DNA of 64,000 nt, from positions 7,660,798 through 7,724,797 of the forward strand of contig OZ020260.1 of the NCBI GenBank assembly GCA_963971285.1. The letters are read 5' to 3'. Origin of the DNA: Astropecten irregularis (lineage: Eukaryota > Echinodermata > Asteroidea > Paxillosida > Astropectinidae). Each line of letters begins with the position of its first letter. Positions within the stretch are counted from its first letter, which is position 1. The position numbers were made by a program, and so were the translations under genes. A model generated the notes under the pieces. It saw only the letters and a program-made list of their open reading frames with translations. It was not told where the DNA came from and searched no databases. Below, piece after piece: positions 1,097 through 59,343 of this stretch.

Positions 1097-1466
1097 TTAA
1101 AGGTACAGTACAGTATTGGTAAATAACCCAAACAGAAATGTTCACAGATTTATGTATAACTTACAGGATATGAAGATGGTGGTGATAGAACCAAACCGTA
1201 AAGATATTTCCACCTGAAATGGTGTATTTATCCAGAAATTAGTCAAGTAAAGACCGAAAACAGTTTTAATCTCGAAGTAAGATCAAAACCATTCTTATAT
1301 TTTCTAAGACAAATTGAGGTGGGTTTTCGCTATTTGTCTCGTGATTCACATGTGCGATTGAGCTTGATTTTCACAGGTTGATTATTTCATGAACATGTTA
1401 GATCAGACAAAGTGTGCGTGCTGTTTTGTGACCTTTACCAGCCATGTATTAGAGCTTTACCTTTAA
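1097..1466 (+). mobile_element. Family B TTAA MITE, full length (about 370 bp)
   Basis: The element begins TTAAAGGTACAGTACAG and ends CTTTACCTTTAA. The left half holds the module shared with families A and C (CACAGATTTA, then GGATATGAAGATGGTGG, then GAAATGGTGTATTTATCCAG). The middle holds GATCTCGAAGTAAGATC, an imperfect palindrome. The right half (GGTTTTCGCTATTTGTCTCG onward) is specific to families B and C. TTAA at both ends fits a piggyBac-type target; no coding capacity. Confidence 0.8.
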
Positions 1467-3035
1467 ACTTGTAGTCTTTTCTGCGGTGCACTACTCTCAT
1501 TCTGTTGTGTACGTTTTATACCCCAACATTGTTAGGCGAGGCTCTTTGACTAATGACTAAGGTTTCTCAAAACGAACGCTTACAAGGAAATAACATTATT
1601 CAGTGATACTGCATTTTTATTTTTAGCTATGCAGTTCTTTTAATTTCATCTCTCGGAAAACCAGATGCTAGCTAAATCTGGTCACCGAATCAGTGTTTGT
1701 ACATGTAATAGAATTAAGTGAATTTTGCAATGAGTGCCAGAAAAAAAAGTCATCAGTTGGGAAACATCTCCTTACGCGCGTGCTCCGGTTCTCATTTGAC
1801 CGTACTCGTCTCTGCGAAATTTGATCCCCGATTTCTTCAATAGTGGGCCAAAGACCCTAAATCCAGGATTGTGTACGAGCGCGGCTATGCAGATATTGTA
1901 TTAGTAATCAATTTAATGTATGCAGCTGCACGCAGTGTAACTATAATACCTTCGTTAAGGTGTGCATAAAACTATAATAGCACTGTGTATAATCGCAGGA
2001 TACTATGAGGATAGTGAATACCTTGCATACTGCATGCTTTTTGCTTCAACAACTACAATGCCCGCACGGGATTAATTCGTCTTCGTGTCTAAGAAATCAT
2101 CTGCTTCAAATGAGAAAACAGTACACTTGTTCACATAGGCAAGTGGGGCATATGATGTTCAGAAGGTTTTTTTTTATTCATAAGCCTTAAGCCCTGTTGA
2201 TTACATACCAGAGAAGTAATCTGCCCCTAACTCTGCTTCATAATGTAAACACGCTAAAGGGTTCCTCACTATATGTTTGATCTTCGAATGCAAATAATAT
2301 ACGCGAAAGTACTCTGTCAGCATTACGATATTTGCATTTTGATGATGTTTAAACAAAACCAAAGTCTGTAACCCTTTTTTTCTGCAGAGTTTCAGAACAG
2401 AACCCTGGATCTTATAATCCTCTGAATATTTCCAGCTGAAATCCTCGACCATTTTTGAGTCTACTACAAATTTGAGGTCTCCTATAGAAATCCAGCATTC
2501 AGATCAGCAGCACAGTTCAATCAATGTTATTATTGCTTCTGTTGTTCATTATACGCACATCGCTATTTTTTTGTTTGGTTGCCGCCATGTTTTTACAGTG
2601 CAGTAACACGAAACATGATATAGAAGGACATTTATATCAAATAACCTTTACAGTAATATATCTTGCTTGATATGTGTTTTCGTAGCAACATTTCATATAT
2701 GCATTGTTTGATTTTAATGATTTATCCATAGAATGTTTGACCCCAATAATGCAAGGGGCTCATGGGGTTCCACACTCTACGTTATATCTCCCTTGAGACT
2801 GACACATTGTACCAGGCGCCATGTGTGTGTGTCAGGAACGGTTTGCTCTTCATGAACTTTCATATATGGTTGCAACATTCTGATTTTTTGTTTACTGCCA
2901 GGACAGTGTCCTGTTCCATCCTGGTTTTTTTTTAAACTGATTTAAAGATGTATTTAAGGTAGCTGCATATAGTTAAACTCTAATTAATTTAGTCATCGAT
3001 TATTATTAGCGTACGTGATCTGAAAGGCTTGTTTT
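1467..3035. other. No recognised gene or repeat
   Basis: AT-rich sequence. Frames at 2005-2190 (+) and 2201-2452 (-) are short and have no recognisable family or splice context. Confidence 0.3.
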
Positions 3036-3296
3036 GAGGTAATATCATACTTATGCCAAAAATATTGAGACGGATACAATAATAGTCATCTGTGAAAATT
3101 TCAGTCCCATACGGTGCCCATTTTTTGAAAAAACAAACCCCCAAAAAACAAAACAGTGAAAAACAGCCACAGTATTTCTTAAGCCTTTTCTCTTAAGCCT
3201 TTTCTAACATCACAATTTTCATACCCTGTAAGTTTGTACGTACATTTGTGAACATTTCTGTTTTAGTTTCTTACCAAAGTATGATACTACCTTTAA
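3036..3296 (-). mobile_element. Family A TTAA MITE, internally shortened
   Basis: The left end is degraded (GAGGTAATATCATACTT without a clear TTAA) and the right end is intact (AAAGTATGATACTACCTTTAA in the family, here to 3296). The copy keeps CAGTCCCATACGGTGCCCA and the CACAGTATTTCTTAAG block but lacks the central palindrome and much of the shared module. Its right TTAA (3293-3296) is also the left TTAA of the next element. Confidence 0.7.
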
Positions 3297-3616
3297 AGGG
3301 CAAGTACGTCATTAGTAATAACAAATGTTCACAATAACAATGTTCACAGATTTACGTGTAACATTCAGAGTATGAAGTTGCTGCGGATGGTGTATTTTAT
3401 CCAGAAAGTGTAAAACCAAACACCTAAAACATTTTTGATCTTTGCAAGATCAAAAAATCTTCTCATGTTTTATCAGACAAACTGAGCCGGGTTTTCGCTA
3501 ATTTCTCGGGACTCATATGTCCGATTGAGCTCAAATGTTCACAGTAGTATTATTTAATGTACATGCTGCGTGAGTGCTTTTCTGTCACCTTAACCAACGT
3601 TGTACATGCCCTTTAA
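3293..3616 (+). mobile_element. Family B-related TTAA MITE, diverged ends
   Basis: It starts TTAAAGGGCAAGTACG and ends TACATGCCCTTTAA. The interior keeps GTTCACAGATTTACG, a GATCTTTGCAAGATC palindrome and the family B right-hand block (GGGTTTTCGCTAATTTCTCG). It abuts the preceding family A copy through a shared TTAA. Confidence 0.7.
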
Positions 3617-3898
3617 CAGACCTTTCGTTTCGTTTGAAATAATATACCCTCTATAGTGCACACAGGCCTATGTAATGAATATTTTCTATACCATGTACCA
3701 GGCCCATATGCATAAGGTTCAGAATTAGGGGCAAAAGAAATCGCACATGTAGATTCGACTCAAATGATAATGAAACTGAAGGTATCTATCAGTGTAAGTT
3801 CAAATGACTAGTAAACGCGTATGCCTTTACTACACGCCTCAAAAAGTTCAAGTATGAGGGATGATATTTATTTGTTACTGAGGCTATGAACGGTGAAA

Positions 3899-4314
3899 CT
3901 GGTATCATTGGAAAGCTCCATTATTCCTCTGTACAATGATGTGCCATCTGTTGTGATTATTATTTTTGTAATCATGGAATGCGCATTTCTCCAGAATATA
4001 GGGCAAAGTGAGAAGTTAATGTTGCAAAATGCAAAACGATTGGAAATTCACTACTGAAAACAACGAATTTTGCAACTTTTCATTTTTGACATTTTATCAA
4101 GGCTGGGCATTCAATGATTACATTAGCATAAAAAATGGCACAAAAGAGATAATACCAACGGTTCTTCTCAGAACCACACACTCTCACAGAAGAGATTACA
4201 TGGTGTCACCGCAAACCTACCTTACTTTTAGTACTTCCACCATGCATAGCTTCAAGTCTTACTTAAATGACACATCATTGTAAAGGAGGATAATCACGTT
4301 TTCCAATGATACCA
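3899..4314. mobile_element. Family W inverted-repeat element containing a K-type sequence
   Basis: About 46-bp imperfect arms face each other: TGGTATCATTGGAAA and TACAATGATGTG at 3899-3946, and their complements at 4267-4314. The interior at about 4131-4262 holds the K sequence (AGAAGAGATTACATGGTGTC, CCGCAAACCTACCTTA, CCACCATGCATAGCTTCAAG), also found at 20793-20880. The short frames across it are by-products. No flanking duplication was settled. Confidence 0.5.
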
Positions 4315-5362
4315 TATCAACATATGATGATGGAGCAATATTAAATTTATTACCTCTCAGACTTGAGTTGTTTGAACCTTTTTGAAGAGTTTCAATAAAT
4401 CCCTTCATGCACGCATTGATACATTTAATAGTGTCGTACGTCATCTAAAGGTCGATGGCAGATTTGTCATCACAATAACGATCAAATTATTTTGTTGCTT
4501 TAAGCTGTTGTGTACAAATGTTAATTTTCACATAGCCGTACATTGCCGAGCCCGTCCCACGAAAATATAAATATTCTGGTTGACTCGAGGATATGTGTCT
4601 AAGATAACGGTCTTTGCTTTGGTGTGTACTCTGTACATGAAGGATGCAGCTGTGTTGTGATCATGGTTAATTAAATACATGTTGTCAGGCGCTCACCGCC
4701 ATGTCTGGCTACACTTAATCGCATATGCACGCACAGGCTTAGGTGGCTGTGATCCGGAAAAAATACATACGAGATTGCAGGCGAGTTTATTTTCATTACT
4801 AGGTCCAGATCCTGAGAAATGTATTATATGGACCGCATTCTCACTTTGACCATGGCCAAGCCGGTTATTGACGGTGGATGCGCTTTATACTCCAATTCTA
4901 GCACACCCATTCAATCAAACTTTACATGCTATGCCTCAAACACAAACACACACAGACATCAATCTATATAGGTCTATGTGATGATAATGTACTCCCATTT
5001 CATTTGACCGGAGGGAAGTTCTGATGCCTCGGGCGCAGCTTGTTTCGTTCATTTGCTATGAAGCACAAACAACAATATTATTGATCTTTCAATTCATGCT
5101 CCGTTGGGTTTGGGGAAAGATCAAGTATACCACAAGTTGTTGTTATTTTCAGTCGGAGTATCTAATAATAAAACATGCCATGGGTATAGCTATAGGAAAG
5201 GGCAAACCCGTATTTAATTAAAAAATAATTTATTCGTGTGGCGTCATTCCTTCGTAACAATATTAGTTTGATTCTTGCTATTATTATACATGTAGGCTAC
5301 ACGTATTGACTGCAAGTCTTACTTCAGGACATGAACTAACCGTGTTTTTCAGTCAATATTTC
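4315..5362. other. No recognised gene or repeat
   Basis: Low-complexity AT-rich DNA with a short CACA tract near 4940. The frame at 5024-5221 (+) is open by chance as far as I can tell. Confidence 0.3.
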
Positions 5363-5793
5363 TTAAAGGTTTACTGTATTCAAAACTCATATGAAGTTAA
5401 ATACATCTATATTGTTATAAAACTCAACCTGTCTATCATTGTTTGTGATAAAAATATTGTACATTGAAAAAGGAGGTGTTTTAGACCCATAATTAAGCAC
5501 CCCACTTTTCGCGACAAAAAAACTTGCTTACGTCACATGCAGAACGCCACGCAGTATATTGTGGTGTAAGCTTTACTAGTTATGTAGGTGACGTCACATG
5601 CTATTGCCGCGTGGATCGGTTCCAATGGGATTTTCTGGTGGTGCGGGGCGTACATGTACTGATTTTGTAACTTTTTGGTCAACACTAAGCACTTACATAG
5701 AAATATAGATTTATATAGTCATTATCTATATATTAAGCAATATTTTTAAGCTCTTTCACCCCTTTCCCAAATTTGATTACGGTAAACCTTTAA
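5363..5793. mobile_element. Family Q TTAA MITE (431 bp)
   Basis: The left end TTAAAGGTTTACTGTATTC and the right end GATTACGGTAAACCTTTAA are inverted copies, and TTAA lies exactly at both boundaries. The interior differs from families A to C and carries a direct repeat of ACGTCACATGC (about 5533 and 5593). No open frame. piggyBac-type mobilisation is inferred from the TTAA. Confidence 0.7.
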
Positions 5794-7189
5794 CTCTCTA
5801 AAAGAATACTCACACAAACACGACAATATGCACCGACGATCAATGCGTCCTGCATATAAAAAAAGGTGTGCAATGTAAGAAAAACTTTAGATATCACAGC
5901 ATATGGCCTTTTGGTATGATTGACATTACGTTCCTGAAACGCATACCACGTGATGTTCTCTTGTCCAATCAGAAGATTCTATGGGACCTTTCGAAACCTT
6001 GGCATCTATGCGGCATCCAAAGCCTACGTCAAATGCAGGCTGCGGTTTTTTGTTGTGAAGTTGAAATTTGTTGTTTTCCTGTTCAAATCTGAAGTAAAAA
6101 TCGAAAGTCACTATTTTGGAAACCTGTTTATACTTCTAAAATGGTGCATGCTGTTGTTTAGAAAAGGACTTGGCTTCTATGAACCACGATTCAAATGAAA
6201 ATCAATGTTGATATTTGTGGCTGTTACTTCTGTGATCAAATATAAATCAAAATTGGACAGATGCCATATTGTGAGGAGGAAAATCAAGAAATCCTTGGTT
6301 GTCACACAATGTTTGCAATGGATTCTGTTCTCCCACTCAATGATGTCATCTTTAATACGGTGGATGATTTTTTTTCTCTCTTTCCCCTTCAGATATCCTG
6401 AGGGGAAGGATGATTTTTTATCTTCGTTGAACGCCTGGGCGTTGAACTCTTCACTCTTTGAAGGATCACGTATAATGCTGAAATCGCTCAGACAGACAGT
6501 CGGTAATTTACATGCTGAATTCTCTACACGCAACATTCTGAAGTGCATTATCCTTGCACTTTACCGTCTGCCGAGCCAAATAATAATTGAATATCGTGGG
6601 TTAATGCTCAGCAGGCCCGGCATATTGGATTCTCAAAATTAAATAAGCATTGTGATTAATAATATCAAGACGGGCCAGTTTCTATTCTAAGACTGGAGCT
6701 ACTTCGGTTGAGCACTGTAGCTGGTACTTCACATCATCCAATCACATTCAGTCATGTGGAAACCATTTCGAATGGAAATAGCAATCAAATATCTTGGGTC
6801 ACAGGTATTCAGATTTTTTTTTTCTCTGAAAAGTCAGAACAAGTCGAGTCATATTTTTCATAACACTAGATATGCAATCCCGTGCTTCTCCAGAGCAAGT
6901 CTGTTCGATTGTAATTAGTCTATTCAATTAGCCGCGTCTTGTATCATTTACAAACGTATGGAGACGTGTTGACTGCATGGTGTCACTTGTATATTGGACC
7001 TCTAGACCTAATTCATGGTACATCCATTTTGTTACCTTCCTTGTATACCCTTTGGAAAATATAATATTAATTCTCAAAGGAAAATGGATACCCGACTATT
7101 TTGAATCCAAGCCTCACTTTGATTGTACTGCCTCGAATGTAGGATGGATGTGCCGTGAATAAGGCGTATACCAAAACAGGTTTGAGTCT
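5794..7189. other. No recognised gene; overlapping frames on both strands
   Basis: Frames of 145 codons (6205-6642, +) and 123 codons (6548-6177, -) overlap antisense to each other. Neither shows a domain, and both sit in AT-rich DNA. I regard them as chance. Confidence 0.3.
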
Positions 7190-7346
7190 AGGCTTGGGAC
7201 CTATTTCGCTACCGAATTTGAGGTCTCAAAACGACACGAAGGGATTGGACCGAGAAAGGCTACAGCTTCGCCTTGTACCCCAAGCCATTTATTTCATTTA
7301 GACTCAAAATCGGTTCAAGTTAAGCCCCAAGCCTATCCCCAAGCCC
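7190..7346. mobile_element. Family J MITE, diverged copy
   Basis: It begins AGGCTTGGGACCTATTTCG and ends CCCCAAGCCTATCCCCAAGC, which are imperfect inverted ends. Interior motifs AAACGACACGAAGGGATTGG and AGCTTCGCC match the copy at 37768-37995. Boundaries are approximate. Confidence 0.5.
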
Positions 7347-7835
7347 CATTTGGTAAATGCACGCAGACTTCCACCATTGGATCGGTGGATCTTGAAGCCA
7401 TCCTCATGAAACTTCTCATATTAAAGCAGGTTAGGTCCATACAGACTTCATATAGGAGTTACCATCATTGCATGGCTGGTGCATAATTCAATTATTACAC
7501 CTCTGGCAATTTCATGTGTCATTTCCAATTAAAGTTCACCTACGCATGGAGTGTGTCTGCTTTTCCCATACGCCCATGATCTGAATAGCTTGTGAAAAAC
7601 TAGATGCATATCAACTCTGAAGTAGGCCTATATATTCGTCTTAGAAAACATTGACCTTGAAATTTTTAGCTTGCTCTTTGTTTCTTATTGTTTTATCGAA
7701 TTTTACTTCGTACATCGACTTTGCGACCTGGTGCGGGTGTTTCAATATTTTGGTTTTGATTTAAAAAAAAAAAATGACCGATTTGGTGGTCATGAACTCT
7801 GCGTCTTGATCAAATCCCAATGGTGTATCCTGCCT

Positions 7836-8118
7836 GGGGCCTTTCTCAAAGCTCGGCTCCGGCTTTGGAATTGGCTCCGGCTCAGGCTTCGGCTCCGGCT
7901 CAGGCTTCGTCTTCATTTCGTGAATCTATTTCAAAATTACAGGTTTCAAAATAGAGGCTCTTGGCTGCAGTTAGGAAGAAGTAGATTCTCTGGTTTGAAA
8001 AGAAAAACAGAGATTTAGCTTCAATGGCAAACAACAATCTATATTTTTAGCGTATGAAAATAGAGACGAAGCCGGAGCCGAAGCCGGAGTCGGAGCCGAG
8101 CTTTGAGAAAGGATCTGG
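7836..8118. mobile_element. Family F MITE with (CCGGCT)-rich ends
   Basis: The left end GGGGCCTTTCTCAAAGCTCGG is followed by repeated GGCTCCGGCTCAGGCTTC units. The right end mirrors it (CCGGAGCCGAGCTTTGAGAAAGG). The interior contains TAGATTCTCTGGTTTGAAAAG, shared with copies at 24439 and 29258. The 115-codon frame crossing it contains an Arg-Leu repeat that only translates the CGGCTC repeats. No clean duplication is visible here, but the 24439 copy has TTA. Confidence 0.7.
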
Positions 8119-9615
8119 GCTTAGCTTGGTTGCCTGTTCTCGATGCATTGATAATTATTGAGCAGTACATCCCAATGTTACCAACAGAGTACAGCGAGCC
8201 ATGGTGTATACTTATAGGCCTATATTCCTACTGTCGTGTTTCATCAAGAAATCTACCTCTTATATCCAACGTATTACCTCAATACCACAAAAGCCATTTG
8301 CCAAACCTTTAAGGAATATCACCGCGAGTAACATGTAAATCCTCGATAGGTTTATTGTCTGATGTATATCATTATGGTATCGGATGCATAACAGACGTTA
8401 ATGCATACGGAATTACTGCATATGGCTTGTCACCGATGATTTGTGCACACCTTTTTGGCCGTTTCCCGCTCAATCAGTGGAAGAAAATAACATTGACAAC
8501 CATTGATATATTATGGGTTGCACACTTGGTAATAATTATGATGATAATGCAAACATCAATGGCAGTATTTTATGAAAGGTGGAAACTACCGCATAATACC
8601 AAAAACGTTTTTAGATTTTTTGCTTCAATTTATAAAGTAACACAAAGCTTTGTAAAACCAAAGGCTGTGTTTAGCTTTTTATAAATCGATACATTGATTG
8701 GTGCGAATGCTGACTTGTTTGACAAATGTATTATGGGAGGGAACTTCACACGTGTGTTATCTTGGACCTTTGCTTCTGTATTGATCGCAACGTGTGTCTT
8801 GTATTTGCACAGTGCCTATACAAATGCTTCATGTTGTTATGGTCAATAATTAAGCTCCATCTTTTTTCAGCTGACACATGCTATGTTTTACCGTGAAACA
8901 TTATGCTAATGTTCTTTTGATCATCCTTGAAGATACACATGCAATCTGAAACAGTACCTATCAAGACAGAAGCAGTCAATTAAGCAGGAACTTCACTCCA
9001 ATTTCAATTTAGGAGGATCATGCATTTCATCCAGTCAAAGATTTATATCTACAAATGACACCTGGCATAAACATGACAATTGCTCACCCACTGCCTTTGC
9101 ACGTGGAAGTTCGCAAGTACATGTGTATTCATTGTTGGGTAGCTGATTGCGTATACGGCAAAAGAAGATAAAATACTGCTTACTCCGTGCGTATCAGTTT
9201 CTCGACCAGAGTTAAGAGTTAATCTTCATGTTGGCTGCATGGCTTATGCCATGCGATTCCTCTGATCAGGGAAAACAGCAATAATTAATTTTCTTTCCCC
9301 ATGATCCGGCGTGGGTGTTGAAGGCATATAACCCATCACCAAGGCCTGTGTCTACCGAGATTGTTATAATCATCCAAGAGGAAGATATATCGGGACGCGA
9401 GGATATTTGTCCGGTAATTGGTGATCGGGTCACCTTGTAGCTTAATACATTTTTCCTGTAGGGTTATTAAAGAGACAAGGATACCTACCCACACGTATTA
9501 ACTGGCTCTCGCTCTCGGTAAAAAAAACTGAAAAAAAACACCCCAAAATCACAGCAGGAACCGTTGTTTTGTATTGAGAAAGTAATTGGCCATATTGGCA
9601 TCCGTGTATTAAGTT
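8119..9615. other. No recognised gene or repeat
   Basis: Frames at 8103-8312 and 8355-8684 (+) have no domain that I recognise. Confidence 0.3.
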
Positions 9616-12573: not shown

Positions 12574-12712
12574 CCATTCAAAAGAAAACCAAATGCTGGT
12601 TTGAAACCACATTAAGACTTGTCATTCATTATCTGTCAGTAAATTCTCTGTATGAAGGCAACAAAATAACACGACTGAAAAAAAAAGCAATGCATGAACC
12701 CTTTAAAGGTAA

Positions 12713-13066
12713 TATCATACTTTAGTTTTTTAACAAAGAAATACAAATTTATGGGCACAAATATCAAGACAGATACAGTAACAGTCTTCTGTGAAAATTT
12801 CAGTCCCATACGGTGCCCACTTTTTGAGAAAACAGTGAAAAACAGCCACAGTATTTCTTAAGTCTTTTCTCTTTTATTTTTGATCTTTTAAAAGATCAAA
12901 CAGATTTTCGGTCGTTGTTTTACTAATGTCTGGATAAATACACCATTTCAGGCGGAAATATTTTAACGGTGGTGATACCACCACCATCTTCATACCCTAT
13001 AAGTTATACGTAAATCTGTGAACATTTCTGTTTTGGTTTCTTACCAAAGTATGATACTACCTTTAA
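12713..13066 (-). mobile_element. Family A TTAA MITE, full length (354 bp)
   Basis: TTAA bounds both ends, with ends AAGGTAATATCATACTTTAG and AAGTATGATACTACCTTTAA. The order is complete: CAGTCCCATACGGTGCCCA, CACAGTATTTCTTAAG, central GATCTTTTAAAAGATC at about 12884, then the shared module. It is a good reference copy, only about 140 bp from the shortened copy. Confidence 0.85.
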
Positions 13067-14639: not shown

Positions 14640-15007
14640 TTAAAGGTACAGTTTCTGTACAGGTTTGGTAACATCACCCAAACAGAAATGATCACAGATT
14701 TACTTATAACTTTCAGGATCATGAAGATGGTGCTGGTAGAAACATACCGTTAAAATATGTCCGTCTGAAATGGTTTGTTTATCTAGAAATAATAAAACAA
14801 TGACCGAAAACAGCTTTGATGGCCGGGGAAAGATTAAACCCATTCTTTGTGTGTTATACGAAAAACTGAGTTTTTACTATTTTCTCGTGACTCAGATATC
14901 TGATTGAGCTTAAATTTTCACAGGTTTTTCATTTCATGTACCTGCTGGATCAGGCAAAGTGCGAGTGCCGTTCAGTCACCTTTACCAATCATTTATTATA
15001 GCTTTAA
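14640..15007 (+). mobile_element. Family B TTAA MITE, full length (368 bp)
   Basis: TTAA lies at both ends (14640-14643 and 15004-15007). The left end TTAAAGGTACAGTTTCTG and the shared module (TATAACTTTCAGG, GAAGATGGTGCTGGTAG) are followed by the B right half (TTTTCTCGTGACTCAGATA). The left flank (14500-14640) and right flank (15090-15210) resemble each other. Confidence 0.8.
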
Positions 15008-18247: not shown

Positions 18248-18603
18248 TTAAAGGTAGTATCATACTTTGGTAAGAAACCGAAACAGAAATCCTGAACTTA
18301 CAGGGTATGAAGATGCATGGTGGTGGTAGAAACATACCGTTACAATTTTTCCGCCTGAAAAGGTGTATTTATCCACAAACTAGTAAAACAACGACCGAAA
18401 ATCTTTTTGCTCTTTTAAAAGATCAGAAATAAAAGAGAAAAGACTTAAGAAATACTGTGGCCGTTTTTCATTGTTTCTTGAAAAAGTGGGCACCGTAAGG
18501 GACTGAAATTTTCACAGATGAGTGTTACTGTATCTGCCTGAATATTTCTGCCCATGAATCTGTATTTCTTTGACCAACAACCAAACTATGGTATTACCTT
18601 TAA
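18248..18603 (+). mobile_element. Family A TTAA MITE, full length (356 bp)
   Basis: It starts TTAAAGGTAGTATCATAC and ends GGTATTACCTTTAA. Central TCTTTTAAAAGATC lies at about 18411. The left module is intact apart from a small loss before CTTACAGGGTATGAAG. No coding capacity. Confidence 0.85.
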
Positions 18604-27236: not shown

Positions 27237-27607
27237 TTAAAGGTTTATTATCATTTGGTAGCAATCCGAAACAGAAATCATCATAGATTTACCTATTACT
27301 TATATAGGGTTTAAAGATGATGATGGTAGAAACCTACCGTTAAAATGTTTCTGTTTGAAATGCTGTATTTATCCAGAAAATAGTAAAACCATTGACCAAT
27401 TTTTGTGTGTAGATCTTTTAAAGATCAAACGTAACTGTGAAAAAGATTGTTTTAATCGTGGGGGTGTTTTCACTGTTTTCTCAAAACAGTGGGCGCCGTA
27501 TGGGACTGTTTTTTTTTTTTTTTTTTACGGATGACTGTTACCGGATCTTCCTTTATATTTGTGCTCACGAATCTGCTTTTCTTTGACAAAAACCAATTTA
27601 CCTTTAA
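27237..27607 (+). mobile_element. Family A TTAA MITE, diverged, with a poly-T tract
   Basis: It is bounded by TTAA at both ends. The left end is drifted (TTAAAGGTTTATTATCATTT). A run of about 16 T at 27511-27526 replaces part of the right module. The central palindrome is reduced to GATCTTTTAAAGATC. Confidence 0.75.
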
Positions 27608-29899: not shown

Positions 29900-30271
29900 T
29901 TAAAGGTATGTACTGGATTGGTACCATACCCAAACAGAAATGTTCACAGAATTACGTATAAATTTCAGGGTATGAAGATGGTGCTGGTTGAAACATACCC
30001 TTCAAATATTCAAAACGCCTGAAAAGGAGTTTTTATCCAGAAACTATTAAAACAAAGACCATAAACAGCTATCTCGAGGTAAGATCAAAACATAAAAATA
30101 AAAGAGAAAAGACTTAAGAAATACTGTGGCTGATTTTCACTGTTTTCTCAAAAAGTTGGCACCGTGTGGGACTGAAATTTTCACAGATGACTGTTACTGT
30201 ATCTGTCTTGATATGTTTGCCCATAAATTTGTTTTTCTTTGATAAAAACCAAAGTATGATATTACCTTTAA
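29900..30271 (+). mobile_element. Chimeric TTAA MITE: B left half, A right half
   Basis: The left end (AAGGTATGTACTGGATTGGT) and the centre (ATCTCGAGGTAAGATC) are family B. From AATAAAAGAGAAAAGACTTA onward, including GAAATTTTCACAGATGACTG and the end AAGTATGATATTACCTTTAA, it is family A. Both boundaries are TTAA. Confidence 0.8.
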
Positions 30272-30716: not shown

Positions 30717-31079
30717 TTAAAAGTAGTATCATACTTTGGTAAGACACCAAAACAGAAATTTCACAGATTTACGTATAACTTTCAGGATATGAAGATAGTG
30801 GTGGTAGAAACATACCGTTACAATTGTTCCGCATGAAATGGTGTATTTATCCCGAAATTAGTAAAACAACGACCGAAAATCTGTTTGATCTTTTAAAAGA
30901 TCAAAAATAAAAGTGAAAAGACTTACGGTGGCCGTTTTTCACTGTTTTCTCAAAAAGTGGGCACCGTCTGCAACTGAAATTTTCACAGATGACTATTACT
31001 GTATCGTCCTTGATAGTTTTGCCCTTGAAGTTGAATCTGTATTTCTTTGACGAAAACCAAAGTATGATGCTACCTTTAA
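30717..31079 (+). mobile_element. Family A TTAA MITE, full length (363 bp)
   Basis: TTAA lies at both ends, with the GTAGTATCATACTTTGGTAAG left end and the AAGTATGATGCTACCTTTAA right end. Central GATCTTTTAAAAGATC lies at about 30887. It is about 450 bp after the chimeric copy, in the same orientation. Confidence 0.85.
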
Positions 31080-37995: not shown

Positions 37996-38291
37996 AGACA
38001 TGAACGTCGTGATATAAAATGAAATTAATCACCCTTTTTCTCCCAATTAACATGAATTTGATGTTTAAAATTAAGTACACAAAATGAATAAAACGAAGAA
38101 AAACAACGACGTCTTGTTTATTTTGCTGGAATATTAGATCTTAAAGAGTTTGAATTGCTGAAGCAAATACCCAAAAGTGTCGTAACAATCGTGTAGAGAT
38201 ATTGTCTGAAAAGTATCGCCTATAGAATAGCACTATTTGATCAACTGGCTTTACATCCTCTTCACTCATTCGCTTTTAGAATAGCATATGT

Positions 38292-38600
38292 TTAAGGTAG
38301 TATCATACTTTGGTTGCAAAGTAAATCTTCACAGATTTACCTTTAACTTACAGGGTAAAAAGATGGTGATGGTAGAAACATACCGTTCAAATATTTCTGC
38401 CTGAAATGCTGTATTTATCGAAAAAAAGAGTAAAACCAATGACCTAAAACTATTTTGATCTTTCAAAGATAAAAAATAACGACGAAAAGACCTAAGAAGT
38501 ACTGTGGGCACTTTTCACTGTTTTCTTAAAGAGTTTGCTTGGCCTGAGACTGAAAATCTCACAGATGACTGTTATTGTATTCTCCTGTGATATTACTTCA
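38292..38600 (+). mobile_element. Family A MITE, right end lost
   Basis: The left end TTAAGGTAGTATCATACTTT and both internal halves are recognisable through CACAGATGACTGTTATTG. The right terminal repeat is missing. The palindrome is drifted (GATCTTTCAAAGAT). Confidence 0.7.
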
Positions 38601-41107: not shown

Positions 41108-42111
41108 ATTTGATCAGCAAAAAGTGTACGCTACTATGGCGGCCCACTCTTCCAATGCAGGCAGATCACAATAATATCGCTCATATGCTTTGATTTGACT
41201 TCGTGCAGATTTCTAGGTCTGGTACGCACTTTAGAAAAATAGCATGCATGAAATAAAGGCTTAGGGGATTAGATGTCACGATGCACGTATGCTGTAATGC
41301 TGAAAGTGGGACCAGTTCGTTTATTCCATATGTTGATTTCAGTAGAACCCCGGATTTAAAAAGAATTACTTGATTTAACTTCAAACAGAAACGAAATGTC
41401 AAATATTGCATATGCTATTATGTAGCCTCCTACTTTGAGTGCAGCTCAAAATGATCTCGCAGTGTTCTATAAAAGGACCATGTGTAAAGAAATGGGAAAA
41501 TGTTCTAGCCAACCAGCTTCAGAGACTCCAAAAATGAAGAAATGTATGATTTTCATCTGACAAATCTAACAATTCAATAGCCTGGCTACACATTCCTGGG
41601 CTTTGTAAGAGGACCGCTGACAGGTCAGTCGGGATTCGAACCAGTAACCATTTTTCCTGGTTAGTCACAACACATCAGCCATATGAAATGATATCGTTAA
41701 GCATGATGCAGCTTAGGTTCGACTTTCAATGTGACCATTCATTTCTTTTTTGCATTCTGAAAAGTCTTTCCTTTGCATAAAATATTGTGTCTTTAGTTGT
41801 GAACTTGTGTCAGGCACCACCCTCGTGTATTAGCGACACGGTATTCAAAGGTGTTCAACTGCAACATTTATACTGAGGTATTGCCTCATTGGGCGGGAAA
41901 GAGCTTTCTCCTGGTATGTGCTTTGTCTGTTGAAACATGAGACACGCAATAACAAGTCGAATATTGCCTTTATGCTACCTATTATGGCCACCGAATGACT
42001 GTTGTATGGCTACTGACTGGCTACCAAAAATGCATTGCTATAATAAATGGCAACCGAATGCGTGCCGGACTGGCGACGTAACGACTAATGAATTGCCGCC
42101 GAATGAAATAA
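41108..42111. other. No gene; weak tRNA-like B-box on the minus strand
   Basis: At 41628-41650 the minus strand has CTGGTTCGAATCCCGACTG, like a B-box, without a convincing A-box. Confidence 0.25.
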
Positions 42112-42345
42112 TAGTTGCCCAATGATTGCCGAATGGTTGCCGAATAACTTCCGAATTGTTGCCGAATTGCTGTTGAATGGCTGCCGAATGGATGCCGAAC
42201 GACTTCTGAATGGTTGTCGAATGGTTGTCAAATTGCTTCTGAATGGCTGCCGAATGGTTGTCAAATGGCTGCCGAATGGTTGCCTGAATGGTTGTCGAAT
42301 GGTTGCTGAATGGCTGCCGAATGGTTGCTGAATGGCTGTCGAGGC
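42112..42345 (+). repeat. 11-bp minisatellite (CGAATGGTTGC-type)
   Basis: About 20 imperfect copies of an 11-bp unit (CGAATGGTTGC, CGAATGGCTGC, TGAATGGTTGT). Because 11 is not a multiple of three, every frame reads an 11-residue cycle (for example NGCRMVAEWLP on plus, and NHSATIQ-type on minus), so both strands stay open. Sparse related units extend from about 41980 to 42380. Confidence 0.9.
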
Positions 42346-42606
42346 TATCTAATGGCTTCCAATGGCTACCAAAATTGAAACTGAACAAATTAAAAATGAG
42401 CAGTGAAAGGCTACTGAAACATCGTGCCAAAGTCCAGAACATTTATTTTGTTCCCACAGTTGTATTTACTCGTAAAGAATAGGGTTCTTATTTATCATTT
42501 TGTGAATAGCACATCTGCAGTTTGAGGAATAATGCAACTGTCAGTGATGGGAATAATGTTGGATTCAATTGTTCTCGTCTGGACATGCTATTCAATCGCA
42601 CAGGTG

Positions 42607-49252: not shown

Positions 49253-49619
49253 TTAAAGGTAGTATCATACTTTGGTTTTTGTCAAAGAAATACAGATTCA
49301 TGGGCAGAAATATCAAGGAAGATACAGTAACAGTCATCTGTGAAAATTTCAGTCCCATACGTTGCCCACTTTTTGAGAAAAAAAGTTAAAAACGACCACA
49401 GTATTTCTAAAGTCTTTTCTCTTTTATTTTTGATCTTTTAAAAGATCAAAAAGATTTTCGGTCGTTGTTTCACTAATTTATGGAAAAATACACCACTTCA
49501 GGCGGAAAAAGTTTAACGGTAGGTTTCTACCAGTATCATCTTCATACCCTAAAAGTTATACGTAAATCTGTGAACATTTCTGTTTTGGTCTCTTACCAAA
49601 AGTATGACACTACCTTTAA
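49253..49619 (-). mobile_element. Family A TTAA MITE, full length (367 bp)
   Basis: TTAA lies at both ends, with AAAGGTAGTATCATACTTTG and AGTATGACACTACCTTTAA ends. Central GATCTTTTAAAAGATC lies at about 49432. All modules are in order; a good reference copy. Confidence 0.9.
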
Positions 49620-50077: not shown

Positions 50078-50175
50078 CAGTGGGCAAGATATGCACTTGA
50101 TGTGTCTGTTGTATTCTACATTGGAAAATACGCCATCTTCTGTCATGACTTATAGTGTGAAGGGGTTAGAACTTC

Positions 50176-52238: not shown

Positions 52239-53036
52239 AGAATACACATATAAGAGTAAAGGTCACCATTCAAATGACATGCGTTGTTTATATTAAATGC
52301 TTTCCACATACAATTTTTTATTTGAAAACCCAAAATGAAAGTTATCAAATGAAGCAGGTTAAACCGCAGGGTTATAGTGGCCATGGAGACGGATTATTAT
52401 ATAACGCGCAATATTCATGGTGCAGCTATAGGTCATGCATTGCTTCAGTGCTGTAGTTTTATTACGTTGGTTTACCATGCGTGGCCAACCAGGGCTTTTG
52501 GAAATTACAATAAAGGTCTTTGGCTTGGAAAAGGTAGGGCAACCTTAAATTCTGGTGTCTGGAAACTACTTCCAATATCAGTAAATTGTCCTCGATGTAG
52601 CTGAATTCTGTTGGGGCGACCTAGTATCGAACGTGTAATATCTGAAAGAGACATTTAACTTTATTCAATAATGCCCGTGTTTGTTAAGTTCCGATCGCAG
52701 CGAAGATGTTCCCAGGCACGTTCGTACTTAAAAGCCATTGAAATAGATGGATCGTTTATCATAAACCATTTTGAGTACAATAGTAATCCTTCAGTTGAAC
52801 CTGATGTATGTGCGTATGGCATGGCCTTGAAGCCAGCTTTCGCTGTCTCGAACAGACAATGAAAGAATAATTGTATTTCATGGGAATAAACATCTCACTA
52901 CGTGTTTGTTCTTTTCATTTATGATTGTTTGTTTTTCATTTCTTTGTTTGTTCTTCATTTCTGTTTTTTCTTTGGTGATTTACATTGTTGTCGTTGCTGC
53001 TTTTGATGTCACTGTATTATTTTTCTAATCTATTCC
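52239..53036. other. No gene; a GTTTGTT-rich low-complexity tract at its end
   Basis: The tract at about 52900-53020 (TTTGTTTGTTCTT, TTGTTGTCGTTGCTGC) resembles 53215-53300. Confidence 0.3.
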
Positions 53037-53205
53037 TTGGAGTTTTGATCTCACCCCGAGATAAAAACTGATTTTGGTCATGTACTCTTTTGTGGAAAAA
53101 AACGTACATTTCAGGCAGACAAATTGTAACTGTGTGTTTCTACCAACACCATATAGGTAAATCCGTGAAGATTTCTGTTTTGGTACGTAGCTACCAAAGT
53201 GTGAT
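53037..53205 (-). mobile_element. Family B half copy
   Basis: Contains GATCTCACCCCGAGATAAAA, ACATTTCAGGCAG, GTGTTTCTACCAACACCAT and TTTCTGTTTTGGTACG. Both boundaries are decayed. T/G-rich similar tracts flank it on both sides. Confidence 0.6.
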
Positions 53206-54745
53206 AGTAAAATAATTGTGTTTTTTATTTTGTCTTTTTTTGGCGATTTTGTTTGTCGCGTTGCTGCTTGTGTTTTTGCTGATGTTGCTGTTTGTTTGAC
53301 CGTGTTTTATATCTCGTCTGTTGGTTTCTTGATATGTTCCTTTGTCTGGTTGTATGTTTATTTGGTTTTGGCGTGTATACGGCCGTTGTTTTTTTCACAG
53401 TTTGCCTTTGCACTATATGCAATGCCTGAACAAACGCGGCTTCCATAAGTCACCTTATTCCTACGGGAATCGTTACCTCAGCAACGCAACATTATCCATG
53501 AACTGTATGGTGAATAATACATGTTTGTTCGCTTTTTGTATTTGCCGAAGTGACTTGGTTACCCTTTAATTTTCTCTCTCAAAAAGCGGTCGGAAAATCA
53601 TCTAACATTTTGTTTCAATACGTATGTAGTAAAACCTCTTGCAACTGTAAAGATATATTTCTCTAACTTGATAGGCAAATAAATTATTGTACTCATTTTG
53701 TAGTACCCTGTCTACTTATGAATTATGGCGTATAGGATTTTAGAAAAGGTATTCGTTTTGAACTCGGCCCGAAGCCCGCATTCACAATTGGTCACATAGC
53801 AAGGATGTTACAATAAGTGCGCGGAACCTCTACTGATGGAAAGGCCGTAAAACCCAACCCATCAATTCTAAAGCGTTATTTCATCCTATGAATTTTTGAA
53901 GACAGTCTGTAATGAAGACGGCTTCAAAGATTTGTTGATCTTATTTCCGGAGGGTAACACACTTCTCTTGATGTTTGTCAATCATTCGTGAAAAGCACCG
54001 TTTACAAAAAAAAAAAGAGTCAGATGTTTTTTTTTCCCGTAGTGCTCTGAATAATAGGAGAGGAAACCACGTGCAAGTCCATTTACTTCAGCCCAGACAC
54101 ATTGGGCCTACACAAAATAAATAAGTATGTTACTTGCATTGGAATAGTGTGCCATTTATACATACGCCACCTGCGTCGGATAGGCCAAGTTTTTTCGCAT
54201 TGCATAATTATTGGGTAAATGCCACAGTCACTTTATAGTCGGGCTGTGTCAGTTTCAATACGTTCAGTAGGGGAGCAAGAGTTGTCAGCTGTATTTAGTT
54301 CAGTTTTCTTTCTTAAAATGTGTTGATGATTTGCACAAAATCTGTTGCTTTTAGGCACCTAAAACGCGGGAAAGTACACGTGAACGCTGCAGTGTTTAAG
54401 AAATAGGTCGTCTGAATTAGTTGACTTAAGTTGACCGTCGTGGTGGCACACAAATTGTTAATATTGTCTTTGCTTTTTTGATGGGCGTAATTGCTATAAG
54501 GTAACCGCACAGATGCTGTTCAATTGCCTCCTAACACCCAATGCACACAAGAGGGCGCCCTCGGCTAGAAGTCAGTTGAGTCCTGTTTAGTCAGAGAAAG
54601 TGTACATTGAGATGGAAGTTGGTCACATTATGGCCAATGAACCATCAGCGCACACAAAAAATATGATTAAAACACTGCACAGCATTAATAATGCCATCCA
54701 TTTTGTGACCACATTGAGAAGCTGTAGGTACTATCATTTTGAAAA
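53206..54745. other. No recognised gene
   Basis: The frame at 53218-53448 (+) is a translated T/G-rich tract. Nothing else supported. Confidence 0.3.
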
Positions 54746-55100
54746 TTAAAGATAATATCTGTACTCTGGTTTTTGTCAAAGAAATGCAGATTCATGGGCA
54801 AAAATATCAAGACAGTCATCTGCGAAAATTGCAGTCCCATACGGTGCCCACTTTTTGAGAAAACAGTGACAAACGGCCACAGTATTTCTTAAGTCTTTTC
54901 TCTTTTATTTTTGATCTTTTAAAGATCAAAAAGATTTTCGGTCGTTGTTTTCCACTTTTCTGGATTGATACACCATTTCAGGCGGAAAAATTTGAACGGT
55001 ATGTTTCTACCGCCACCATCTTCATACCTTGTAATGAATACGTATAAATCTATGAACATTTCTGTTTTGGCTTCTTACCAAAGTATGATACAACCTTTAA
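54746..55100 (-). mobile_element. Family A TTAA MITE, full length (355 bp)
   Basis: TTAA lies at both ends. The left end is drifted (TTAAAGATAATATCTGTACT), the right end is AAGTATGATACAACCTTTAA. Central GATCTTTTAAAGATC lies at about 54914. Confidence 0.8.
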
Positions 55101-55389
55101 TGTGCTCTAGAAGTCAACAGAGGGCAGTACGACTTTAGCTGCGGTACGATTTCTCGTTGTGTCATCCTCTTTAAGATGTGCCTCTATTAAGATAACGACG
55201 TTATGACGTCAATGCATAAGTACAATGGTTGGTTGGTTAGTCGATTGTTGGCTTGGCTGCCTAGTCGGTCATTTGCCCGTAGTCAATGCCCTTAATATAC
55301 ACACGATTGCGCAGGCACCGCCGATGTATCAAATAGAACGTCATTGGAAATAATGTGTTATAAAAGGTTATGGCTAGCTGATGACCTCT

Positions 55390-55723
55390 TTAAAGGTGCA
55401 TGTAGTATCATACTTTGGTATCATACCGAAACAGAAATCTTCACAGATTTACCTATACATGGTATAAAGATGGTGATGGTTAAAACTTACCGTTCAAGTT
55501 TGTTATGCCTGAAATGCTGTATTTACTATAAAAAGAGTGAAAACCAATTCACCGAAACAATTTTGATCTTTAAAAGATAAAAAATAACGGTGACAAGATT
55601 TTTAAAATACCGATGGCATTTGTCACTGTGTTTCACAGATGACTTTTATTGTGTCTTTCTTGACATTTCTGACAATGAATCTGAATTTCTTTGACAAAAA
55701 CCAAAGTATGATTCTACCTTTAA
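55390..55723 (+). mobile_element. Family A TTAA MITE with an altered left end
   Basis: The left end carries an extra GCATGTA (TTAAAGGTGCATGTAGTATC). The interior is somewhat shorter, and the TGTCACTG block runs directly into TTTCACAGATGAC. TTAA lies at both ends. Confidence 0.8.
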
Positions 55724-56276
55724 GAGTGAAATGTCCTTGGTGTGTCAGTGCTACAATCCCCAGGGGACTTACCCGTGGGGGAGGGGAGGGGAGTCTATCG
55801 ACCTCACCGCATTGGAAGATACCGTCACGTGTAAATAATTCATTCCTAAGCATTTAACGTGAGACTGGCTACCTACGTCAGATTCTGAGATCCAAGTGTA
55901 CCGTGCATAACGTACGTATTAAAAATAAATGCGCTGACATCAAACCAAATACAAGGAGCATAATGTATACACATGGTGTGTAATCGAAGCAGTCTGGCGT
56001 GAGACTTGCTAACCTTGTGGAATTTCACTGTTCATTTGGCATATCCTTTGCTGTTACATTGCGGTGTCGTGTTACGTCTGTTATTGAGTTTGTCATTTGA
56101 AAATTATATTATGTGCCTGATGTCATTAAGTTAAGTTCTTAATGCATTCACGAACCCTTATGGTAACTTGGTCTACGGCGTGGCATAATCACAAAAATGA
56201 GCAAATTACGGTTTTGTTTTCAACATTTTTATTGCAATCATAGTATTACTAATAGGGTTATTCATCGCTGTGGATA
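55724..56276. other. No recognised gene or repeat
   Basis: Nothing supported. Confidence 0.3.
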
Positions 56277-56900
56277 CTCTCTAAATGCAAAAGAGTGAAA
56301 GGGCAATTTTTGAAGAGTCATACGAGGGACAACTCTTTATCGAGCTGCCGTCCACTCCTTAAAGGGATGGTACAGAATTGGTTTTTGCTACAAAACCGTT
56401 GCTGACAGTGAAAGCACATTATGTAATCCATCATATACGGTACCTTAACTGACAAACCTGTAGAAGTTTGAGGTCAATCAGCCATCTGGTTCACGAGAAA
56501 ATAGTGAAAACCCGTGTACAGAGAACTGTACACATTTCAACGAATGAAAAAAACGCTTCGAAGCGATTTATTCCGATCGGAAAATAGTTTCATTTATTTC
56601 TCAACGAATATGGCATTTCAGACAAAAACATTTCATGGGATGTTTTTCCCTATCATCACCATTATATTGTGTAAGTTTTATGTGAATCTGTGATCATGAA
56701 GTGTATTTTGTCTTACCATTTCTGTACTATCCCTTTAAGAGTGAGTTTTGCATCGTTTTGAGTGATGTTTCACTCTGACCCAGACGGTGAATACCACTCC
56801 AAAAGAGTTAAATAGCCACCACTCTTTTTGAAGAGCCATTATTAAGGACAACTCGATTCTAACAGACATGGTATTTTTTCACTCTTTTGCATTTAGAGAG
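56277..56900. mobile_element. Tc1/mariner-like MITE hosting a family C copy
   Basis: The ends CTCTCTAAATGCAAAAGAGT and ACTCTTTTGCATTTAGAGAG are perfect inverted repeats, and TA flanks both sides. Without the nested element (56359-56738) the host is about 248 bp. GAAGAGCC/GACAACTC motifs occur near both ends. Confidence 0.8.
56359..56738 (-). mobile_element. Family C TTAA MITE, nested
   Basis: The ends TTAAAGGGATGGTACAGAAT and TTCTGTACTATCCCTTTAA are inverted, with TTAA at both boundaries. The central palindrome is CGCTTCGAAGCG. The right half contains the diverged shared module (CATTTCAGACAAAAACATTT) and the left half the B/C block (TGACAGTGAAAGCAC). Confidence 0.85.
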
Positions 56901-56909
56901 TACAGATGA

Positions 56910-57050
56910 GGAAAAAGGTGTCACACGATGTCGTGTTGCTGGTAGCGACGTTTCGTCTGCCGTTGATGCCTGATGAAGGCTAGCAGTACCAGCAGTCGAA
57001 ACTTCGCTACCAGCAACACGACATTGTGTGACTTTGATCTCCTTTTTCCT
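56910..57050. repeat. Inverted repeat with a hammerhead-like core
   Basis: Arms GTCGTGTTGCTGGTAGCGA and TCGCTACCAGCAACACGAC, extended by GGAAAAAGG and CCTTTTTCC, enclose CTGATGA (56970-56976), a GGCT/AGTC stem and GAAA (56998-57001). CTGATGA, stem and GAAA match the order of the hammerhead core, but an unpaired A after CTGATGA and no clear third helix make activity doubtful. Confidence 0.5.
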
Positions 57051-57357
57051 AATCATAGGATTATTTAATATTCTTGTTTGAGTTTCAACGTTCCTGTTAA
57101 CCGGAAATCCTTCAAGGTCCTTAAAGTGAACATATTTGTATGTAAATTGTATTTGAAGGGAGGTAATTATTTGTGGATGGTAGTGTCAACTTTCCATTCT
57201 TAAACACATTAAAATCATAATTAGCTATACATTTGAAATAATGCAACCGGCCTTCATTAAAACCTGCAATGCTGCCACAGAACAGATCCATGACGTCATC
57301 ATTGGTACCCGACATTAGTGCTTGGTTGTAGCTGTGTCGGATAATAATATGCATAAT

Positions 57358-57626
57358 TAATTTCGTATCATATAGAAATACGGCCGAAATAATCTGCCCC
57401 CCTCCGAATCCTTCACGGTTACACCACGCGTCCGCAATGCTACTAAATCGTTCGGACGAACGATCTTTTTAAAAGACACTAAATCTTGATTTCCTTGATA
57501 AACCCAGCATCTGATGAACCAAGATTTCCCATGGTGACTGTTTGCACTCTTTACGAACGGTTGAGTCAATTTTCTGTCTTAAACTCAATAATTTGTTTGG
57601 AGGCCTTGCAAATCCTGTACGCTGCC
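57358..57626 (-). mobile_element. Family R MITE, 3'-truncated
   Basis: On minus it starts GGCAGCGTACAGGATTTGC, continues GTTCATCAGATGCTGG, and contains a palindrome ATCGTTCGTCCGAACGAT absent from the 32457 copy. It shares the GVTVKDSEG coding stretch. No TTAA is visible at its left end. Confidence 0.65.
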
Positions 57627-58017
57627 AATAGTAGGCATTTCTTCGAGACATTCCTTCAAAACAAAAATGATGAAAAGGGTATATATTATTAGTTAACGCT
57701 AAAATTAATACTTCCTCTTGCCAACATTTCCATTCTGTTTTGTCGAACCTTAGCTACCTCTTTAAAACAGTTTTAATATTCTCCATAGCAATAAACATGA
57801 AAGTGATCGTGTGGACTATTGAGAGAAATCTCTACTGCGAAAACTCTAAAACGAAAAAGAGCTCACCCATCCCCAAGCAAACGCCCCAAGCCCTAACACC
57901 CCTCCAAAAACAAAATTAAGTGTTAAACAGTTTTTCGTAATGAAGGTGTCGATGTTTTCCAAATGTTAATTTGATTTTGCCAACTTGAATTCAGTCTTGA
58001 TTTTTACCATAGAGCCC
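57627..58017. other. No recognised gene or repeat
   Basis: Nothing supported. Confidence 0.3.
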
Positions 58018-58383
58018 TTAAAGGTAACATCATACTTTGGTAAGACACCAAAACAGAAATCTTCACAGATTTACGTTTAACTTACAGGGTATGAAGATGA
58101 TGGTGGTAGAAACATACCGTTAAAATTTTTCCGCCTAAAATGGTGTATTTATCCAGAAATGAGGCGAACAACGACCGAAAATCTTTCTGATCTTTTAAAA
58201 GATCAAAAATAAAAGAGAAAAGACTTAAGAAATACTGTGGCAGTTTTTCACTGTTTTCTCAAAAAGTGGGCACCGTATGGGACTACAATTTTTACAGATG
58301 ACTGTTACTGTATCTCTTTTTGTTATTTTTGCCCATGAATCTGAATTTTTTTGATAAAAACCAAAGTATGATACTACCTTTAA
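58018..58383 (+). mobile_element. Family A TTAA MITE, full length (366 bp)
   Basis: The left end TTAAAGGTAACATCATACTT and right end AAGTATGATACTACCTTTAA are intact. Central GATCTTTTAAAAGATC lies at about 58190. Its right TTAA is shared with the following family C copy. Confidence 0.9.
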
Positions 58384-58744
58384 AGGGATGGTACAGAATC
58401 GGTAAGACAAAATACACTTCAAGATCACAGATTCACATAAAACTTACACAGTAAACTGGTGATGATAGGAGAAAACATCCCATGAAATGTTTTATGTCTG
58501 AAATGCCATATTTGTTGAGAAATAAATGAAACTATTTTCCGATTTGAATAAATCGCTTCGAAGCGTTTTATTGAATTCGTTGAAATGTGTAAATGGGTTT
58601 TCACTCTTTTCTCATGACCCAGATGGCTGATTGACCTCAAACTTCTACAGGTTTGTCAGTTAAGGTATATAATGGATTATATAATGTGCTTTCAATGCCA
58701 GCAACGGTTTTGTCGCAAAAACCAGTTCTTTACCATCCCTTTAA
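58380..58744 (+). mobile_element. Family C TTAA MITE, full length (365 bp)
   Basis: The ends TTAAAGGGATGGTACAGAAT and CTTTACCATCCCTTTAA are inverted. The central palindrome is ATCGCTTCGAAGCG. The right half (TTTTCTCATGACCCAGATGG) is homologous to the B right half. Confidence 0.9.
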
Positions 58745-59006
58745 ACTTTAGCTTACCATATCTAAGCTGCGTGGAAGGTATTCAATTAATCAAGACGCTG
58801 CAATAAAACAGTCAAATACAAAACTACTAACCACGCCCGGATAGAAGGAATTAGTGTAAAGCGTCTTGCTTATGGACACTAGAAGCACGAATTTGGTGAC
58901 CCGGGCTTAACCCTACAATCTGTGGAATCATTCATACCAATGACACATAGTCCATCAAGTATAATTCCTCATCAGTCTCGCTGAGAAGAACAAATTAAGC
59001 TCAGCC

Positions 59007-59343
59007 TTAAAGGCATACTGTGGTAGCATACCAAAACAAAAATCTTCACAGCTTTACCTGTACATGGTATAACGATGGTGACGGTAGAAACATGCCGTCA
59101 AAATGTTTTTGAGTGCCAGAAATGCAGTTTTTATCCAGGCAAGAATACAACCGAAGACCAAAAACAGTTTTCAGTGATATCGGGATGAGATCAAAACTCT
59201 TGTGAATAGATTTGAAGAGACTATGGGCGTTTTTCACTGTTTTCTCAAAAAGCGGGCACCGCATGGAAATTAATATTTCACAGAAGACTGTTACTGTATC
59301 TATGATATCTTTGACAAAAACCAAAGTATGAAGTTACCTTTAA
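59007..59343 (+). mobile_element. Family A TTAA MITE, B-like centre
   Basis: The left end is drifted (TTAAAGGCATACTGTGGTAG), and the right end AAGTATGAAGTTACCTTTAA is clear. The centre, GTGATATCGGGATGAGATC, resembles B rather than the A palindrome, so this may be another mixed copy. Confidence 0.75.

Follow-up and report, generated by a model that had tools for sequence, protein, structure and literature searches.

The stretch of sea star DNA analysed here, from Astropecten irregularis, covers 64,000 bases (the window; contig C24, OZ020260.1, positions 7660798-7724797, within a genome of 475.7 Mb and 168 contigs) and is rich in miniature inverted-repeat transposable elements (MITEs) of about 365 bp flanked by TTAA. 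The best explanation of their structure, to which we assign a probability of about 0.65, is that they are Kolobok-type MITEs that diversified by exchange of half-element cassettes at a central dyad. A preliminary description had sorted them into families A, B and C with different terminal repeats, a shared left-hand module and a central palindrome for each, and had proposed either that modules were exchanged or that the core was kept for function. Changepoints at the dyad, single chimeric copies and cross-combinations of ends and right halves across the genome support module exchange.

To compare the families, 61 copies were obtained from 60 loci, mostly of about 540 bp, which were taken from about 100 listed motif sites in listing order, with some skipped. 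The sample contains 30 A-RA, 11 B-RB1, 3 B-RB2 and 3 D-RA copies, where RA and RB denote the right-half types. Three further copies are L064 (B with an A-type right terminal inverted repeat, TIR), L111 (D-RB1) and L108 (called A-RB2, or X), the left end of which is a variant of its own known from this copy alone. The remaining 11 have no recognised right end. Consensuses were built only from copies of 330-380 bp. Sampling required an exact left-module motif and TTAA, so these columns were excluded from the conservation test and C-like families were missed. Near-duplicates from one region of contig C1 (L055/L056 and L057/L058/L060) mean that the sampled copies are not all independent.

The consensuses agree strongly in some parts and poorly in others. 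Between A and B1, TTAA (4/4) and the following AGGTA (5/5) are identical and the left module is nearly so (130/139), whereas agreement drops to 2/11 in the TIR block at positions 10-20, 12/25 in the dyad, 66/145 in the right half and 16/25 in the right TIR. The terminal repeats are thus different in that block, as had been described, but all four consensuses start with TTAAAGG, A, B and D are colinear at that end, and the left ends of A and B differ mainly by an 11-bp block behind a constant TTAAAGGTA. Family D, not split off earlier, combines an A-like TIR with its own left-module variant; it agrees with A at 10/11 positions of the TIR block, 127/138 of the left module and 148/150 of the right half. 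B1 and B2 share 132/139 on the left and 87/145 on the right. The common left module holds for A and B; that of C is homologous but diverged, matching A at 84/139, B1 at 80/139 and B2 at 79/139, and only CACAGATTCA of the three left-module strings quoted earlier occurs in C within one mismatch. On the right, C is indeed closer to B1 (93/148) than to B2 (78/149) or A (64/149), although A, for which a different right half had been claimed, is related to B1 there as well. Shuffle z scores of 28.9 (A/B), 10.4 (A/C) and 8.9 (B/C) for the left module, and of 4.6 (A/B1), 6.4 (A/B2), 9.0 (B1/B2), 10.5 (B1/C) and 3.5 (A/C) for the right half, place all families in one homologous group. The idea that the element arose by inverted duplication of one of its ends was rejected: beyond the TIR the halves are no inverted repeats, and of 500 shuffles 386 (A), 330 (B1), 116 (B2) and 276 (C) reach their inverted-repeat score.

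Where the families change from alike to unlike was located by a changepoint test on pairwise identity over positions 27-340 of the element coordinates (about 365), with 1000 permutations. Changepoints fall at the left side of the dyad in A/B1 (163-177), A/B2 (162-178), D/B1 (161-177) and X/A (162-166), and at its right side in B1/B2 (190-194) and X/B1 (190-195); each was reached in 0/1000 permutations. The A/C changepoint lies at 153 (142-163; 9/1000). Exact patterns counted across the genome show that both halves also occur in the other combination: an A/D TIR is joined to RA 6,919 times and to RB 112 times, and a B TIR to RB 492 times and to RA 29 times, with 0 in the controls. A given TIR type goes closely with a given right half (odds ratio 1048), and cross-combinations make up 141 of 7,552 patterned copies. 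The variant TAGGAAACC is present in the left part of 21 (counted by eye) of the 63 listed A/D-RB matches, which suggests that the copies bearing it are an amplified recombinant family.

Individual chimeras were sought by mosaic decoding of 62 copies (48 sampled, 14 from the window), seven of which were decoded as more than one segment. Four were counted as chimeras: L064 (gain of 46 nats), L111 (33), the window copy at 29900-30271 on the forward strand (26) and L108 (12). In the window copy, which has TTAA at both ends, a B-type left end, left module and dyad are followed directly by an A-type right half, as read from the sequence. In L069 and L074 the decoded C segments coincide with deletions and were discarded as artefacts, and the element starting at 27237, with a gain of only 3 nats, was left out of the count.

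The contrast between the halves of A and B1 could instead mean that the left module is a functional core, bound by a transposase or host protein or adopting a fold, and held by purifying selection while the TIR block and right half diverged. A direct repeat in A, with ACAGAAATGTTCACAGAT in the left half and ACTGAAATTTTCACAGAT in the right, scores above 500/500 shuffles in both A and B1, as expected of a subterminal binding site; it is not significant in B2 (129/500 shuffles reach the score) or C (56/500). Near-complete identity over 139 bases also exceeds what binding sites require. The 27 A-RA copies match their consensus about equally well in the left module (identity 0.933) and the right half (0.938; permutation p 0.59), and better in the TIRs (0.968; p 0.007 against the left module), the classification of copies partly by their ends being a bias towards the TIRs; among 11 B1 copies, identities by region run from 0.90 to 0.96. 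Within family A, then, the ends are the best kept part and the core does not exceed its flanks, which is the outcome that the preliminary description had named as refuting its idea. Moreover, the C-type end has 3,447 matches in the genome (up to two mismatches; control 0; one copy may count by both ends) although C and A are only about 60% identical in the left module. This even decay and the abundance of C ends argue against the left module being strongly constrained, and a functional core is unlikely. Plain descent of one lineage without exchange, the right half evolving faster than the left, would fit the whole-length homology of all families, the small number of clear chimeras and the uniqueness of the one in the window. 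It has difficulty with A and D, in which the pattern is reversed (right half better kept than left, Fisher p 0.009), and with the 112 A/D-RB copies, about one third of the listed ones sharing TAGGAAACC like an amplified recombinant family. We consider it decidedly improbable. The likeness of the left module in A, B and D may rather be due to fairly recent inheritance or exchange than to per-base constraint.

The remaining alternative concerns the mobilising enzyme. The preliminary description had taken TTAA to point to piggyBac, and the TTAA target itself is well supported as duplicated on insertion. The joined flanks of the D copy L106 match window positions 1-77 without gaps (96.1%, E 6e-31) with TTAA at the junction, and the A copy L077 lies inside a B1 element with a gap-free junction where the B1 consensus reads TCAA. 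Among the matches listed, the A copies L057, L060 and L006 also have empty sites in related local repeat units, some with small junction gaps. TTAA stands at both ends of 52/61 full-length copies in a sample that had been chosen for left TTAA, and a single TTAA is common to neighbouring elements at window positions 58380-58383 and in L103, L105 and L110. Since the duplication of TTAA is common to piggyBac and Kolobok, it is not diagnostic between them, and TTAA by itself does not imply piggyBac. The genome does contain 90 piggyBac-domain matches, several with open frames above 600 aa. Of 30 such loci taken, 22 were examined for ends: TTAACCY flanks two on both sides (L009 and L011, as TTAACCC) and eight more on one side, while TTAAAGG on both sides was found at 0/22. 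The MITE consensuses end in AGG...CCT, with AG (5'-RR) following TTAA in A, B, C and D, as in Kolobok and not as in piggyBac with its CC[C/T]T termini (passages of PMC9587614, PMC6004289 and PMC2872659). Mobilisation by piggyBac is therefore very improbable, and the families look like Kolobok/T2-type MITEs. By the narrower T2 definition, AGGRR, C fits with AGGGA and A, B and D do not with AGGTA, so we call these MITEs T2-like and not T2 members. Four B copies (L062, L063, L064 and L110) have TTAAATG at the left end and keep AGG at the right, and are perhaps a subfamily with an altered left terminus.

Candidate Kolobok transposases are encoded at two loci, L053 and L054, each with a THAP open reading frame (ORF; Pfam E 5.9e-16 and 3.4e-16, respectively) beside a long ORF with a DVWH (DxxH) motif. 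This is the C/DxxH signature that PMC9587614 names. The long ORFs matched nothing in Pfam at 1e-3; for one part of the L053 ORF, PF20700 scored weakly, at 29.9 bits with a cut-off of 26.5. Their inferred TTAAAGG ends, which carry related letters at both ends, lie at 317 and 7626 in L053 and at 1060 and 7731 in L054. The left TTAA of L054 is common to an A-type MITE end, which supports that boundary, and a copy 97% alike is found on contig C97, where the stretch examined stops 50 bases before the inferred end. Used as a query against the genome, the L054 transposase found 68 matches; three are long and many are fragments. What L053 and L054 have in common with the MITEs is TTAAAGG alone. Other loci were rejected as partners: the 1.5-kb flanks of the PF20700 loci L047-L052 contain neither a TTAAAGG/CCTTTAA pair nor a TTAA TIR pair, the THAP locus L044 carries DDE_Tnp_4, and the THAP loci L043 and L046 presumably encode P-element transposases. 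A cysteine-rich ORF with an ECLCC/NCICC core is present on the forward strand in L053 (707-1186), L054 (1516-1953) and a further Kolobok-type locus, L115 (454-792). In each it lies close to the end farther from the THAP ORF, which is encoded on the other strand. That of L053 had no Pfam match at 1e-3; we assume a resemblance to the P2X7 C-terminal domain. Contig C11 is dense in piggyBac, THAP and Kolobok transposase fragments at about 18.9-22.1 Mb, many with stop codons.

Several observations weigh against Kolobok-type MITEs having exchanged half-elements at the dyad. The A/D changepoint, at 186, is poorly placed (37-214; 29/1000 permutations), and no clear switch at the dyad was seen in B1/C (46/1000), B2/C (146/1000) or X/B2 (219/1000). 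X in these tests is a single copy. Clear chimeras amount to only 4/62 decoded copies, and the junction of the window chimera occurs once genome-wide at up to two mismatches, i.e., it was not amplified. Sampling via a left-module motif favours families that share that module. As for the transposases, the ends of L053 and L054 are only inferred, because three TTAAAGG and two CCTTTAA occur in L053, and one TTAAAGG and two CCTTTAA in L054. The ends of the Kolobok-type loci L053, L054, L115 and L116 lack the MITE TIR block and have other letters behind AGG, L115 and L116 show no TTAAAGG pair, and a non-exhaustive search of the genome for long elements found no transposase-encoding element with these TIRs.

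The dyad is the part of the element that keeps its place as its letters change. In A it spans positions 167-192, with 13/13 pairs around a centre at 179|180 that reads TTAA; in C it has 12/13 pairs around 180|181 and letters unrelated to those of A. The chance of at least 12 pairs is 1.7e-6 at a given centre and 5.9e-4 at any of 340 centres. At the same place B2 folds with arms of 12 bp and B1 with arms of 10 bp. The B1 consensus centre is GATCTCGGGGTAAGATC; the palindrome formerly quoted for B has its nearest counterpart at 30070-30086, in the window chimera. Between the A and B2 consensuses, two dyad positions are changed on both sides with pairing kept (T-A to G-C and T-A to C-G). Covariation inside dead A-type copies gave no signal of compensation: the 31 copies in which the dyad is ungapped (intact in 11) show 60 one-sided changes, three two-sided changes that keep pairing and six that break it, as expected if copies are unconstrained after insertion. 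Whole-strand DNA folds (z -5.9 in A, -2.1 in B1) add little, because TIR and dyad pair in both. The dyad is the sole part of the element for which a kept function is plausible. Tentatively, it may be a working cis-element for transposition (a hairpin, cruciform or dimer-binding site) that also serves as the hinge of half-element exchange. Under such a hinge, which we regard as possible but doubtful, letters would be swapped whole (A versus C) or in matched pairs (A versus B2) while symmetry and mid-element place stay. New combinations of TIR and body could then arise repeatedly and follow changing transposases. Judged by eye, L073 and L069 have flanks that look like the central part of a further MITE, as though these copies had been inserted at the TTAA of an A dyad.

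Half-element exchange in Kolobok-type MITEs could proceed as follows. A THAP-type Kolobok transposase would act in trans, recognising the terminal AGG common to the families together with the TIR block next to it. Half-element cassettes would be exchanged between copies and found new families. The simplest route may be template switching during gap repair or replication at a hairpin-prone dyad, with gene conversion as another, and the TIR block would be matched at both ends afterwards. How MITE families change their ends and pass to new transposases is an unsettled question, which a set like this one, with copies in the tens of thousands, a sharp point of switching and TIRs in matched pairs, would make testable.

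Comparable systems have been described, and the statements that follow refer to selected passages of each paper. The T2-MITEs of Xenopus (PMC6004289), of the Kolobok type, target TTAA, end in AGG, are abundant and fall into several subfamilies, with a THAP/DDE transposase thought to act in trans. Their ends read AGGRR, compared with AGGTA in A and B and AGGGA in C, and those passages do not state a cassette exchange or central dyad. The CMITEs of Acropora corals (PMC2872659) comprise several families that have an interior in common under TIRs of different sequence; they duplicate TTAA and form chains. They are about 100 bp long with CC[C/T]T ends and tied to piggyBac, in contrast to about 365 bp and AGG ends here; the comparison is by description, interiors not having been aligned to these elements. 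KolobokP (PMC9587614), which is Kolobok kin, has 5'-RR ends and short units with their own TIRs able to move alone, but these solo units (LTDRs) measure about 450 or 660 bp and make 3-5 bp duplications without strong specificity, unlike the present MITEs with about 365 bp and TTAA. In Galileo of Drosophila mojavensis (PMC3573991), subfamilies have recombined to give elements whose TIRs do not match each other or whose interior comes from a different subfamily. This element differs in its P-superfamily affiliation, long TIRs and 7-bp duplications, and the passages contain no central dyad hinge. P-MITEs of Anopheles gambiae (PMC1562414) are explained by internal deletion repaired with ectopic sequence, and one has TIRs related to two sources; interiors of different families lack significant identity. 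A conserved interior under varied TIRs (PMC2872659) and inter-subfamily chimeras (PMC3573991) are therefore already known, so that the conserved core under varied ends, rightly called unusual in the preliminary description, is not new. Neither this family nor a MITE central-dyad hinge was recognised in literature that was mostly judged by titles and abstract beginnings and included few subscription journals.

The MITE content of the window was determined by blastn with five consensuses, which gave 45 merged matches, and zero in the reversed window used as a control. Nineteen matches, none above 40 bp, stem from palindromic dyads and from TIRs aligned to the other strand. One of the 26 longer matches consists of joined A and C elements, which gives 27 pieces: 15 A/D-type, 9 B-type, 2 C-type and one B/A chimera. 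As two B pieces look interrupted, the nine are counted as about seven elements, and these numbers are close to the earlier ones (A about 15, B about 7, C 2). MITEs cover 7,385/64,000 bases (11.5%), no base being counted twice. The core motif of A and B, GTATGAAGATGGTG, has 28 matches in the window at up to three mismatches, against a shuffle mean of 6.75, and 39,173 (19,571 + 19,602) in the genome at up to one mismatch, against 113 for the reversed motif. TTAA followed 55-85 bases on by the exact motif occurs 13,758 times genome-wide (control 1). The elements are short, non-coding as judged from ORF lists alone, bounded by TIRs, uniform in size (consensus length 364-365 bp in A, B1, B2 and D) and present in high copy number, as expected of MITEs. 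Terminal strings of these families are TTAAAGGTAGTATCATAC, TTAAAGGTACAGTACAGG and TTAAAGGGATGGTACAG.

Full-length A-type elements, compared with the A consensus over 1-365, lie on the reverse strand at 12703-13066 (95%, both ends TTAA), 49253-49619 (93%) and 54746-55100 (89%, one end mutated), and on the forward strand at 18248-18603 (88%) and 30717-31079 (89%, left end TTAAAAG). A further one, at 58018-58383 (forward), shares its right-hand TTAA (58380-58383) with the adjoining full-length C-type element at 58380-58744 (forward), whose dyad arms lie at about 58547-58572 with a perfect CGCTTCGAAGCG at 58554-58565. The other C copy, also full length (56359-56738, reverse, 380 bp, 88% to the former), has a perfect CGCTTCGAAGCG at 56554-56565. 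The central dyad of an A copy is well seen at 49427-49452, where 26 bp read TTTTTGATCTTTTAAAAGATCAAAAA, irrespective of strand, with TTAA at the centre. B1-type elements are found on the forward strand at 1097-1459 (right end mutated to AGCTTTA; 88% to the B1 consensus over 1-364) and, full length, at 14640-15007 (86% over 1-365). D-type elements, with an A-like TIR and their own left module, are all on the forward strand: 27237-27607 (both ends TTAA; 77% to the D consensus), 38291-38580 (match incomplete on the right; 82% over 1-295) and the diverged copies 55402-55723 (75% over 7-364) and 59014-59343 (73% over 14-364). The last has, by eye, a B2-like stretch directly behind the dyad and was decoded as a single D segment.

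Some repeats of other kinds were also observed. The window contains a tandem repeat with an 11-bp unit at 42088-42362. On contig C1, five pairs of D-type elements in opposite orientation, with about 2.54-2.58 kb between partners, lie at 0.26-0.86 Mb (starts 261121/263699, 426644/429214, 553074/555614, 749427/751967 and 858987/861525), which looks like a repeated segment or a composite mobile unit. On the same contig, C-type ends recur on one strand every 5.2 kb or so (10839178, 10844405, 10849639 and 10854840), as if a larger unit were repeated there in tandem.

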